From Akkermansia sp. RCC_12PD (lineage in GTDB: Bacteria > Verrucomicrobiota > Verrucomicrobiia > Verrucomicrobiales > Akkermansiaceae), in assembly GCF_036417355.1 (NCBI RefSeq), contig NZ_CP143889.1:1922001-1986000 (forward strand): a stretch of DNA of 64,000 nucleotides, given 5' to 3'. Shown here in pieces: positions 16,274 to 50,539 of this stretch. The first letter of the stretch is position 1. Every line of letters starts with the position of its first letter. A program made the position numbers and the translations under genes. A model generated the notes under the pieces. That model searched no databases. It worked only from the letters and a program-made list of their open reading frames with translations, and was not told where the DNA came from.

Positions 16274-17104
16274 ATGGACAAGAAGATTTTTCCGGATGAA
16301 CCCGAAATTCCCATTTTGCCGAACCTGTTCACGGCAGGGAACCTGGTGTGCGGATTTTTCGCCATTCTGACGATTTTTGAAGGGATCAACCAGGCGGACA
16401 GCGATGCCGTGGCGGCCTTTGCCTGTTATCAGAACGCCACGTTCCTGATTTTCGCGGCTTGTCTGTTCGATTTGTTTGACGGCCGGATTGCGCGTATGCG
16501 CGGGCAGGACGGCCCGTTTGGAAGGGAGTTCGATTCTCTGGCGGACATTGTTTCTTTCGGCATCGCTCCGGCGCTTCTGGTGGCCAAGGCGGTATTGTTC
16601 CAGCTTTCTCCGCCGGAAGTGGGCTGGGGCATCGGCATTTTGTACCTGCTGTGCGCCGCCCTGCGTCTGGCGCGCTTCAACTGCATGGCGTCGGCTCCCC
16701 GCAAGGAAGGCCAGAGCAGCGATTTCGTGGGACTTCCCGTTCCGATGGCGGCCGGGGCTGTGGTTTCCACCATGTATCTGGTGATGTACCTGGCTGGCAG
16801 GGCGCCGGATGGGGCCATGGACCTGGGCGTGTTCAAGTACGTGATCGCCCTGGCGATGGCAGGCGTTTCCGTGCTGATGATGAGCCGGGTGGTTTATCCC
16901 AGTTTCAAGCACATCAACATGCGTACGCGGGGTACGATGTACGCGATCGTGCTCATTGTGCTGACGGTCATCTGCATTTTCAAATTCCCGTGGGTGATGC
17001 CCGCGGTCATTTTCTCCATTTACCTGCTTTATGGGCTGGTGCGCCCCTGGGTGGCCCGCCGCTGGCGGAACAAGCTGGAAGCCAGCGACGGGGAGGAGGA
17101 GTAA
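16274..17104 (+). CDS. pssA: CDP-diacylglycerol-serine O-phosphatidyltransferase
   Basis: Makes phosphatidylserine, the precursor of phosphatidylethanolamine, in the inner membrane. 276 residues with about eight hydrophobic segments. The CDP-alcohol phosphatidyltransferase signature is complete: Asp69-Gly70, Ala73-Arg74, Gly83, Asp87 and Asp91. An N-terminal Pro-Asn-Leu-Phe-Thr-Ala-Gly-Asn-Leu stretch is typical of the PssA type (type II). No decarboxylase gene (psd) is in the window. The gene lies directly after alaS; the AT-rich island begins within a few hundred bases of its stop. Confidence 0.93.
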   Translation: MDKKIFPDEPEIPILPNLFTAGNLVCGFFAILTIFEGINQADSDAVAAFACYQNATFLIFAACLFDLFDGRIARMRGQDGPFGREFDSLADIVSFGIAPALLVAKAVLFQLSPPEVGWGIGILYLLCAALRLARFNCMASAPRKEGQSSDFVGLPVPMAAGAVVSTMYLVMYLAGRAPDGAMDLGVFKYVIALAMAGVSVLMMSRVVYPSFKHINMRTRGTMYAIVLIVLTVICIFKFPWVMPAVIFSIYLLYGLVRPWVARRWRNKLEASDGEEE

Positions 17105-17142
17105 CAGAATTTTTCCAGCAAACGGAGGACCTTGCCCTGGCC

Positions 17143-17547
17143 ATGCCGCCACAGGAACTGTGGATATTCCTTGCCCGATGCCGGGTCTCTTGTTCCAACT
17201 TTGTCCTGAACGCCATGTATCGTTACTCCATATCCCGGGAAGATTTCCACGCATGCGTCAATCATCTTCTTGGCCGCCGAGCGCGAAAGGCTTTTTATGC
17301 GGTGCACCTCAAGAGAGGCATTTTCCAAGTAATAGCTTTACTGATTATTTTTTATGTTTGCTGGTATCTTCAAGCAAATTATGCGGAATCAGGATGGGTT
17401 AAAGCTTGGTTTCCTGCAGGTAATGTAATGGTTTTTTACTATATTTTTATAGTTTTGATTTTTTTAAATCGAAACTATTTACTTTGGTCTTGTATCAGTC
17501 GTTTTGGCTGTCTCTCCCGTCAATTTATTACCGAATATCAGCGTTAG
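17143..17547 (+). CDS. Small membrane protein, copy 1 of a duplicated cassette; C-terminus replaced by repeat DNA
   Basis: 134 residues from ATG 17143 (a GGAGG lies 14 bp upstream), or 110 residues from ATG 17215, where similarity to the decayed second copy begins with Met-Tyr-Arg-Tyr-Ser-Ile-Ser. Two hydrophobic segments are present, at about residues 74-90 and 103-120. Family not recognised. The last 25 codons lie inside the 120-bp repeat at 17470-17589. The second copy loses similarity at exactly that point, so the natural C-terminus seems to have been displaced by the repeat. Base composition drops from GC-rich to AT-rich within the gene. Whether it still functions is unclear. Confidence 0.55.
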   Translation: MPPQELWIFLARCRVSCSNFVLNAMYRYSISREDFHACVNHLLGRRARKAFYAVHLKRGIFQVIALLIIFYVCWYLQANYAESGWVKAWFPAGNVMVFYYIFIVLIFLNRNYLLWSCISRFGCLSRQFITEYQR

Positions 17548-17589
17548 CAGCAATGCGATATTCCAACAAGATTATTCTACATAATTCCG
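17470..17589. repeat. MITE-like 120-bp repeat, copy A
   Basis: The stretch aligns without gaps to 50420-50539. Over the 118-bp core there are 14 mismatches (about 88% identity), 13 of them transitions. Ends form imperfect inverted repeats: CGAAACTATTTA at the left, and CGGAATTATGTA when the right end is read on the minus strand. An 8-bp direct repeat TTTTAAAT flanks the element at 17462-17469 and 17590-17597 (a target duplication is possible, though the site is AT-rich). An internal hairpin has arms GAATATC (17533-17539) and GATATTC (17557-17563). Differences are spread evenly over codon positions, so it does not look coding. Confidence 0.7.
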
Positions 17590-17663
17590 TTTTAAATTAT
17601 ATACGTCTCTAGAAAAATCTCAGCTGGAAGCATCAGCGACATGATGCAAGAATACAATCGAGC

Positions 17664-17924
17664 ATGAAAAATGCTCTCGAAAAAATTAGCAAAGGCAAAG
17701 AATGGGACGAACCTGATTTGATGGAATACGACCCGGATAAAAAAGAAATAAAATTTCTTAATAAGACTCCTAAGAAGTGTTCATTGCCTCCAGATTGGGA
17801 ACAGTCATTGAATCACGTTCAGGATAATCTTTACTATGGTTTGGTATGGACGGGTCAAAACAAATTATTATTCCATTCAAATCTACTGGAAATGATAAAT
17901 CGTCTTTTTAATCTTAAATCATAG
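17664..17924 (+). CDS. Small acidic protein, copy 1 of a paralogous pair; function unknown
   Basis: 86 residues from ATG 17664. The frame is open upstream to 17613, so a longer product is possible. It is clearly paralogous to the product at 18204-18437: both share the pattern Gly-Lys-(Glu/Asp)-Trp, Glu-Pro-Asp or Asn-Pro-Asp, Met-Glu-Tyr-Asp, Glu-Ile-x-Phe-Leu-Asn-Lys, then Trp-Glu-x-Ser-Leu and Val-x-Asp-(Asn/Asp)-Leu. No membrane segment or signal peptide. The C-terminal 28 residues do not match the paralogue. The AT-rich composition, unlike alaS/pssA, suggests acquisition by transfer. The pairing with a small membrane protein could reflect an effector/immunity or phage-related role, but nothing in the sequence proves this. 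Confidence 0.6.
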   Translation: MKNALEKISKGKEWDEPDLMEYDPDKKEIKFLNKTPKKCSLPPDWEQSLNHVQDNLYYGLVWTGQNKLLFHSNLLEMINRLFNLKS

Positions 17925-17941
17925 ATCCTTTGATTTTAATT

Positions 17942-18201
17942 ATGTACCGTTATTCCATTTCTCAAGCATAAGCACGTGCAGGCCTTTTATTTTCATTCTA
18001 TGGTTTGTTGCTCTCCTGTTGCTCCGGTAGGTGCAAGTTCATTATCGATAGTCAGGATGGATGCAAACGTGGCCGTTTTCTGGAGATGCAGTAGATTTCT
18101 TTTACGTGTTTTCTGCTTTGTGTGTTATTTTCAGAGGAAAAAATTTGATAAGCTTAATTGACTTTACATCTTTTAAACAGATAAATATCGGAAGCGTTTA
18201 A
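17942..18201 (+). pseudogene. Decayed second copy of the small membrane protein gene
   Basis: Starts ATG-TAC-CGT-TAT-TCC-ATT-TCT, matching Met-Tyr-Arg-Tyr-Ser-Ile-Ser of the 17215 start, then hits a stop two codons later. After a probable internal deletion and frame change, similarity resumes: Ser-Gly-Trp-Met-Gln-Thr-Trp and then Phe-Tyr-Val-Phe align with Ser-Gly-Trp-Val-Lys-Ala-Trp and Tyr-Tyr-Ile-Phe of copy 1. An in-frame TAG stands directly before the Ser-Gly-Trp motif. The frame ends at TAA 18199-18201, 2 bp before the second small gene. This shows the two-gene cassette was tandemly duplicated and one membrane gene has decayed. Confidence 0.6.
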
Positions 18202-48786: not shown

Positions 48787-49803
48787 ATGAGTGAAAATCA
48801 TTATGCAGAGTTTTCCGAATGCGGCATGAAGCCCCAGGACGTGCTGGCTTATGTTTCCGGTCCCGCCCCGGTTCCGGCAGAGGGGGAAGTGCTGGTGCGG
48901 ATGATGGCCGCCCCGATCAATCCGGCCGATATCAATTTCATTCAGGGCGTGTACGGCGTGAAGCCCGTACTACCGCATTCACGCGCAGGACTGGAAGGCT
49001 GCGGCGTGGTGGAAGAGTCCCGTGCGGACGGCTTCCGGAAAGGGGACCAGGTGATTCTGCTGCGCGGCGTGGGCTCCTGGAGCAAGCTTGTGGCGGTTCC
49101 TGCCGTCAACCTGATGAAGCTGCCCGTGGCGGTGGACCCCGTGCAGGCGGCCATGCTGAAGGTGAATCCCCTCACGGCTCTGCGGATGCTGGAAGGGTTC
49201 GTGAGCCTGAAGCCCGGCGACTGGGTCGTCCAGAACGCCGCCAATTCCGGGGTGGGGCGCTGCATTATCCAGCTTGCTCGCCAGATGGGTGTCAAGACGG
49301 TGAATTTTGTCAGAAGGCCGGATGAATTGAGGGATGAGCTGACGATGCTGGGAGCGGATCTGGTGGTTGGCGAGAATGACGAGGATGCAGTGAAGAGAAC
49401 CTTGGCTTTTCTGGACGGGAAGCGTCCTGTTCTGGCTTCCAACGCCGTAGGGGGGGAAAGCGCCTTGAGGCTGATGGATATGCTCGCACCCGGCGGAAGC
49501 ATGGTTACCTACGGAGCCATGAGCAGGAAGAGCATCAAGGTGCCGAACGGGTTCCTGATTTTCAAGGGCATCAGGCTGGAGGGCCTGTGGGTGACCCAAT
49601 GGCTTAAACATGCTCCGGCCCAGGATATTGCGGCTGCCTATGACAAGCTTGCGCGGCTGATGGCGGAGGGCAGCCTGGTGCAGGCCGTGGATACGGTGTT
49701 TCCGCTGAACGAAGTGCGCCGGGCCGTGGAGAAGGCGCAGGAAGAGTTCCGCAACGGCAAGATTGTGCTGAAGATGGGTTGGAGTGATTTCTTGTTTAAA
49801 TGA
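48787..49803 (+). CDS. Zinc-free MDR reductase, enoyl-thioester reductase (MECR/ETR)-like
   Basis: 338 residues, medium-chain dehydrogenase fold without zinc ligands. Pro-Ile-Asn-Pro-Ala-Asp-Ile-Asn-Phe-Ile-Gln-Gly (about 35-46) matches MECR, as do Val-Asn-Pro-Leu-Thr-Ala, Gln-Asn-Ala-Ala-Asn-Ser-Gly-Val-Gly (NADPH loop) and Thr-Val-Asn-Phe-Val-Arg. MECR enzymes reduce trans-2-enoyl-ACP/CoA with NADPH, in fatty acid synthesis or related reductions; a quinone oxidoreductase role is also possible. Monocistronic, divergent from rpmB. A short hairpin follows at 49807. Confidence 0.86.
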   Translation: MSENHYAEFSECGMKPQDVLAYVSGPAPVPAEGEVLVRMMAAPINPADINFIQGVYGVKPVLPHSRAGLEGCGVVEESRADGFRKGDQVILLRGVGSWSKLVAVPAVNLMKLPVAVDPVQAAMLKVNPLTALRMLEGFVSLKPGDWVVQNAANSGVGRCIIQLARQMGVKTVNFVRRPDELRDELTMLGADLVVGENDEDAVKRTLAFLDGKRPVLASNAVGGESALRLMDMLAPGGSMVTYGAMSRKSIKVPNGFLIFKGIRLEGLWVTQWLKHAPAQDIAAAYDKLARLMAEGSLVQAVDTVFPLNEVRRAVEKAQEEFRNGKIVLKMGWSDFLFK

Positions 49804-49806
49804 AAG

Positions 49807-49827
49807 TTTCTAATGAATTATTAGAAA
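49807..49827. terminator. AT-rich hairpin between convergent genes
   Basis: 8-bp arms TTTCTAAT and ATTAGAAA with loop GAATT. It separates the reductase gene from the convergent minus-strand frame, whose stop codon falls inside it. AT-only stem, so it is a weak terminator. Confidence 0.4.
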
Positions 49828-50420
49828 GAAGAGACTTGTTTTGCTGTTGTTTGGGTAGGAACGGCGAGGTGGCGGTGTATACTTTGCTCTTTGGAGCGCT
49901 TGCTCTGATATAAAGTAATGTGCATGGAATGGTTCAGGGAAGCGGAGCGGAAATTGGGTAATTCATCAATTGGGATGTAATTTTTTAGGATGATGTTTTT
50001 GTAGGGTTCCATGATGGGGGCATCCAAGGGGAAGCTGACTATCAGAAAATCGGCTTTTTGATTTGTCAGGTAGAAACACACTTCTTTCACAGCTTTGTCC
50101 CATGTGGGTCTGATAATATAAAATTTCAATTTCGGGTAGACAGGAGCTTGTTGTACAAACCCGAAGGAAAGGTCCATGAAGTGTATGATTTGTGGGTCTG
50201 TAATGGATCGCAAGTGGGCACATATTTTTTCCAGCCCCCTGTTGTTCTCTTTTAATTTTCCAGTAAATTTTTGATAGAAGTTGTATGAAGAAGCAGCCAG
50301 AGGACACAAAATGGCTAAAAGATAAAGTTTACGGGAATAAAACAATTTCCATTGCAACTTTTCTTTCACTAATTCCATGAGCCCGACCAAGCCTATGAAG
50401 GCGTATGGTAAAAGAATAAC
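49821..50420 (-). pseudogene. C-terminal remnant of a GT39-type membrane glycosyltransferase
   Basis: The only possible starts are a TTG (50390) and an ATG (50378); the frame stays open upstream (Val-Ile-Leu-Leu-Pro-Tyr-Ala-Phe-Ile-Gly-Leu, a membrane helix) until the repeat at 50420-50539 begins. The helix plus a following hydrophobic segment (about 20-40) and a soluble tail match the end of dolichyl-phosphate-mannose-type or ArnT-like enzymes, whose first 8-10 helices are missing. The 5' part was therefore probably lost at the repeat junction. AT-rich composition suggests foreign origin. A short expressed protein cannot be excluded. Confidence 0.55.
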
Positions 50421-50539
50421 GGAACTATTTACTTTAGTCTTGTATCAGTCGTCCTGGCCATCTCTCCTGCCAATTTATTACCGAATATCCACGTTGGCAA
50501 TAATGCAATATTCCGACAAGATTATTCTACATAATTCCG
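50420..50539. repeat. MITE-like 120-bp repeat, copy B
   Basis: Ungapped partner of 17470-17589, about 88% identical. Terminal inverted repeats are clearer here: left CGGAACTATTTA, and the right end on the minus strand CGGAATTATGTA, 10 of 12 identical. The internal hairpin is weaker than in copy A. No direct repeat at its flanks was seen. It abuts the broken GT39-type gene and lies 123 bp before the GT4 gene. Confidence 0.7.

Follow-up and report, generated by a model that had tools for sequence, protein, structure and literature searches.

The described systems closest to the element analyzed here center on the IS1595 family. In the account of this family in PMC8101967, as far as seen here, the features are 8-bp target duplications, a zinc finger, and a DDE domain, and a single transposase gene is usual. 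The same account describes the eukaryotic Merlin transposons as having the same transposase domain, with 8-bp or 9-bp duplications. The relevant part of PMC3129680 deals with MITEs that are activated by cognate transposases and with ISs that bear passenger genes; the latter are called 'transporter ISs', with a citation to a 2009 paper on the IS1595 family. A third point of reference is MITEPye1 of Paracoccus yeei, which, in the portion of PMC11578231 that concerns us, is short, lacks a transposase, and has inverted ends resembling those of an IS family, together with direct repeats.

The Akkermansia MITE family described here is like MITEPye1 in these respects. The two differ in their ends, which are of the IS1182 type in MITEPye1, whereas those of the Akkermansia MITE match the ends of an IS1595-family transposon. 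The Akkermansia MITE is also set apart, going by the same part of that source, by its 8-bp duplication and by exact empty sites in relatives. Its putative parent is like the IS1595 family, with its ISXO2-like transposases, in matching PF12762, PF12760, and NF033547 and in the 8-bp duplications given in the account in PMC8101967. The parents examined here depart from the usual single gene of that account by holding further genes, although passenger-bearing ISs have already been described, as the part of PMC3129680 referred to above shows. No prior description of an Akkermansia MITE family with IS1595-type ends was found in the open literature searched. The MITE family is new and its arrangement is of a familiar type; more unusual is the parent with its cargo.

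The window, i.e., the whole stretch of DNA analyzed, comprises 64,000 nucleotides (G000:C1:1922001-1986000) of a one-contig genome of 3,168,262 bases. We are highly confident in reading the segment 17470-17589 of the window as a MITE on which the IS1595-family transposase of a larger transposon in the same genome probably acts in trans, with an 8-bp duplication at A+T-rich sites. With this reading, the Akkermansia group gains a defined, recently active miniature transposon family and, within one genome, the likely driver of it. The features in the window are as follows.

17143..17547, plus strand: open frame entered by copy A, with 109 codons outside and 25 within the element
17462..17469, no strand: left target duplication, TTTTAAAT, matching 17590-17597 at 8 of 8 bases
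17470..17589, plus strand: copy A of the 120-bp MITE, one of the genome's nine near-full-length copies and the same at all 120 positions as that at G000:C1:2712526
17470..17492, plus strand: left terminal inverted repeat of copy A, CGAAACTATTTACTTTGGTCTTG, two mismatches to the family pattern
17567..17589, minus strand: right terminal inverted repeat of copy A, reverse complement CGGAATTATGTAGAATAATCTTG, no mismatches to the family pattern
17590..17597, no strand: right target duplication, TTTTAAAT
49821..50420, minus strand: open frame of 199 aa, family unnamed, whose 5′ side abuts the left edge of copy B
50420..50539, plus strand: copy B of the MITE, diverged, differing from copy A at 15 of 120 positions and without a target duplication

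The two copies lie where the original prediction placed them, and BLAST with copy A finds copy B at E = 7.8e-38. They form an alignable pair, as had been proposed, but the proposed 14 mismatches (13 transitions) over 118 bp become 15 mismatches (14 transitions) over 120 bp on recounting. Likewise, the inverted ends are present, but they are imperfect and measure about 23 bp rather than the 12 bp or so first suggested. The identical sequence said to flank copy A on both sides is an exact 8-bp direct repeat. Copy A, at 120 bp, is too short for a transposase, and its frame comes in only from outside. The element, as read here, is non-coding and consists of two transposase-type ends around some 70 bp of other sequence.

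The gene breakage proposed at the two copies holds only in part. The frame entering copy A has no match in Pfam or NCBIfam or in the 58 other genomes of the genus, and so it may not be a gene. When the flanks of copy A are joined in silico, the frame starting at 17143 would stop four codons on; that is, insertion has replaced the last 4 codons by 25. Copy A would have exchanged no more than the tail of an orphan frame. The claim of a membrane protein broken here survives as an open frame that ends inside the element, but the frame belongs to no known family. At copy B, the minus-strand frame does read into the left end of the element, where it stays open for 24 bases. The GT39 identity proposed for this frame is unsupported: searches of Pfam to E = 5 and of the PDB to E = 10, like that of the 58 other genus genomes, gave nothing, and NCBIfam up to E = 1 gives two chance-level matches only (E = 0.13 and 0.15). 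No minus-strand ORF of at least 80 aa lies between 50390 and 52650, so no 5′ part is seen beyond copy B. The 199-aa frame may be a gene remnant. The flanks of copy B match at 3 of 8 bases, and the absent target repeat fits deletion or recombination; such a later event may have removed the duplication and perhaps also the 5′ part of a gene. With a small change to an orphan frame at one copy and an unnamed frame at the other, the proposed same-edge breakage of two genes is a weak argument.

The further genome copies that were to be searched for according to the original prediction are present. BLAST with copy A and its edges as query finds, besides the nine near-full-length copies, two end-only matches of 34–35 bp in the same genome. 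When the copy A query was run against 38 relatives, two matched, G004 with two copies and G017 with one end. The nine copies of the own genome and the two of G004 were aligned, and the identities given here rest on the printed rows of this alignment. In addition to copy A and 2712526, copies 415668 and 273617 are identical, as are the two G004 copies to each other. Within the close group, copy B has diverged furthest, at 88–91%, and copies 874443 and 504721 are 71–72% like copy A. At least four other elements in the genome, 148–152 bp long, have ends of the same type. A 141-base query had no match in the phage or plasmid collections. Viral contigs hold three stretches with the end pattern, one of which (L069) is the same element as the Prevotellaceae locus L055 discussed below; in the other two, no transposase is seen.

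The end pattern, CGGAAYTATNTANNNTARTCTTG, is about 23 bp long, was drawn up from the copies, and fits both ends. With up to three mismatches it occurs 30 times in the own genome, and the reversed control not at all. With up to two mismatches it is found in 9 of the 59 genus genomes, the own genome included, and the reversed control once overall, in G053. Exact 8-bp duplications flank 16 of 29 distinct elements with two such ends, these ends having been set by the analyst from pattern scans. The 29 exclude L053, which is the same DNA as L191, and L069, as well as L061, whose stretch begins with the left end and so leaves no flank, and the one-end loci. In 10,000 trials with shuffled right flanks, exact 8-bp repeats numbered 0.78 on average and never more than 5, so that the observed 16 was never reached; among the elements themselves, no other repeat length between 2 and 12 is seen more than 5 times. 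The exact targets are 93% A+T.

Broken down by class, the exact duplications are found at 7 of the 11 copies of the 120-bp type (two of the 11 from G004), at 3 of 10 other small elements, and at 6 of 8 transposase-bearing elements. The count for the 120-bp type, which includes copy A and answers the proposed test for target duplications, was reached by none of 10,000 shuffles; for the 10 other small elements alone, 23 of 10,000 shuffles reach the observed 3. The 120-bp copies without an exact repeat are copy B (3/8), 2123457 (6/8), 874443 (3/8), and 2886403 of G004 (5/8).

Empty sites were read from the overlap between the matches to the left and right flanks of a copy. For copy 2712526, the left-flank match in G004 runs to 2766466 and the right-flank match begins at 2766459, an overlap of 8 bp, and in G051 the flank matches overlap at 48795-48802, again by 8 bp. 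For copy 273617, the overlap in G004 is 255620-255627, also 8 bp. The target is thus present singly at the empty sites of these two sister copies. Eleven genomes, the own one included, were searched for each of the two copies, and in the remaining relatives the match is one-sided or ends before the junction. At copy 415668, the left flank is not conserved in relatives. At copies A and B, the search of relatives yielded no empty site, a right-flank counterpart being absent among the best 6 (A) and best 5 (B) candidates per genome; since these numbers of candidates were scored, a diverged right flank at either copy could escape. Relatives match the left flanks to window positions 17095 (A) and 49781 (B), and beyond these match weakly (E ~8e-4) or within the element. 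The proposed test for empty sites thus gives exact ones at two of the five copies looked at, and copies A and B are not among the two.

A test for a parent transposase with the same ends had also been proposed, and an uninterrupted transposase gene does lie between matching ends. The transposon of the own genome has its ends at G000:C1:2440739 and 2444483 and holds a 305-aa transposase frame without stops. This frame scores 104 bits against PF12762 (cut-off 27; E = 8.7e-30), 189 against NF033547 (cut-off 75; E = 1.2e-55), and 27.7 bits against the N-terminal zinc ribbon, PF12760 (cut-off 25.4). For the transposase of L046, one of the Bacteroidales loci described below, PF12760 is not among the matches listed at E 0.001. 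The left end of the own-genome transposon agrees with MITE copy 415668 at 22 of 23 bases. BLAST alone, with the MITE as query, finds the parent ends at G000:2440739-2440763 (96%, E 8.5e-4) and at G004:74338-74364 (96%, E 7.1e-5). The transposase is found at 97–99% identity between such ends in three other genomes, as follows, and hence between matching ends in at least 4 of the 59 genus genomes.

G004 parent: 4219 bp, exact 8-bp repeat
G017 parent: 3807 bp, exact 8-bp repeat
G067 parent: 8501 bp, 7/8 repeat

Because the MITE ends match those of the IS1595-type transposon, the MITE probably moves with that transposon's enzyme. That is, the transposase encoded at G000:C1:2440739-2444483 would bind the MITE ends in trans and insert the MITE where the DNA is rich in A+T, with 8 bp of the target duplicated in the process. 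It is the matching of the ends that makes the present transposase the probable driver. The flanks of the own-genome transposon match at 3 of 8 bases, without a duplication, and its two ends may therefore derive from different insertions. Two more IS1595-type frames in the own genome are 40% and 33% identical to the transposase. The second of these, a transposase fragment with one stop (L184:2298-2864; G000:C1:2122797-2123363), lies 93 bp from MITE copy 2123457. Relatives of the transposase on 434 plasmid records are all below 60% identity.

An unlikely alternative, but the one that fares best, is that the family is a relic: the MITEs would have been spread by another, now lost transposase, and the present IS1595 transposon would resemble them in its ends only. 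When the 70 bases beside each end were compared by eye, MITE and parent showed no likeness past the ends, and it has been seen that the own-genome transposon has no duplication and that copies 874443 and 504721 are well diverged from copy A. The two further IS1595-type frames mean that another driver could act. However, the three identical pairs point to recent movement. Of the six paired copies, four lack a sister at their site, and exact duplications are present at all except 2886403 of G004. The absence of stops in the present transposase frame also speaks against a relic.

Far less probable is a functional chromosomal repeat, such as an RNA hairpin, a terminator, or a binding site, REP- or ERIC-like, that merely resembles a transposon. 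As RNA, copy A with its duplications does fold better than shuffles (z = −3.1), but the fold is weaker without the duplications (z = −2.1 and −0.8 for copy A, depending on the strand; −1.8 for copy B), and the inverted ends suffice to make a hairpin. The 8-bp duplications and the exact empty sites, moreover, are insertion footprints, and the empty sites contradict this reading. An Rfam scan of 17000-18200 up to E = 5 gave a single chance match (E = 3.8), and a scan of 17300-17800 gave three promoter-like sites (shuffles, 1.3) and one terminator-like site (shuffles, 0.3), none of them within the element.

A single homologous gene family, of which the two stretches would be ends, can safely be set aside, as no point was found in its favor, the sequence beside the copies varies among them (by eye), the frame entering copy A is unmatched in 58 other genomes, and the empty sites at two copies contradict it. 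Neither this outcome nor a lack of both further copies and empty sites, the two findings named at the outset as speaking against an inserting element, was obtained; the further copies, target duplications, empty sites, and transposase between matching ends all support a MITE.

The parents hold more than a transposase. All six with listed frames (L071, L179, L180, L181, L046, and L060) contain frames beyond it. The four parents of the Akkermansia group, L071:3740-7484, L179:1145-5363, L180:1048-4854, and L181:964-9464, have the same trio by one end, namely the IS1595-type transposase, an outer-membrane beta-barrel, and a frame of 115–118 aa. The beta-barrel reaches PF13505 in L071 and L179, the two tested, and is assigned in L180 and L181 by likeness of frames; the 115–118 aa frame gives weak helix-turn-helix matches under the Pfam cut-offs in L071 and L179, again the two tested. 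The far side varies. The frames there are unmatched in L071, as are the two in L180, and L179 has a frame resembling Peptidase_C13 (E 0.007, short of the cut-off). In L181, a PLD-like frame (below cut-off) is joined by an N6 methylase and a specificity subunit, and a second IS1595-type transposase is also present; the best PADLOC models for its methylase and specificity genes are type IIG and type II.

An exact scan of the species-genome collection with CGGAAYTATNTANNNTARTCTTG gave 23 loci. Seven of these hold a transposase of roughly 60% identity, namely L046 and L060 (61–63%) and L049, L051, L054, L055, and L061 (60–62%); in the same order, their titles are Rikenellaceae, Candidatus Enterocola, Bacteroidales, Barnesiella, Bacteroidales, Prevotellaceae, and Rikenella. 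Two of these Bacteroidales versions are flanked by an exact 8-bp duplication: L046:1043-4239 holds a C-5 cytosine methylase and an unmatched neighbor, and L060:2056-6035 an N6 methylase and a frame with a specificity domain. Five loci are titled Akkermansia and have no transposase in the fetched stretch; exact 8-bp repeats accompany three of them, L053, L058, and L063, which are small paired elements. Eleven loci have a single end and no transposase in the fetched stretch, and many of these may be chance, as 257 billion bases should give some 7–8 matches by chance alone if equal bases are assumed. Of more use as a lead than the MITE are the parent transposons, since restriction-modification-type genes lie within one set of ends in several of them, across two gut phyla.

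A tentative and rather doubtful extension is that the MITE is part of a modular cargo-transposon system common to gut Verrucomicrobiota and Bacteroidota, in which the parents of the Akkermansia group have the trio above as a fixed core and swap its neighbors (a methylase with a specificity subunit in one, frames weakly like PLD or a peptidase in others). The transposase may accept any DNA between 23-bp ends of this type, and MITE pairs could then move genes as composites.

A pair of 152-bp elements in inverted orientation lies at L072:1721-3504 (G000:C1:1084720-1086503). Their own target repeats are absent (2/8 and 4/8), and the outer flanks of the pair match at 7 of 8 bases (TTCAAAAA / TTCAAAAT), which is a hint of a composite formed by a MITE pair. 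The pair, which encloses two frames of 192 aa (one extending into an element), is possibly a MITE-bounded composite or an inversion. In the same stretch, L072:4225-5409 is a long simple repeat in which several frames are open, with runs of Pro-Val/Pro-Ala, Leu-Glu, Trp-Asn/Ser, or Gly-Thr/Ala.
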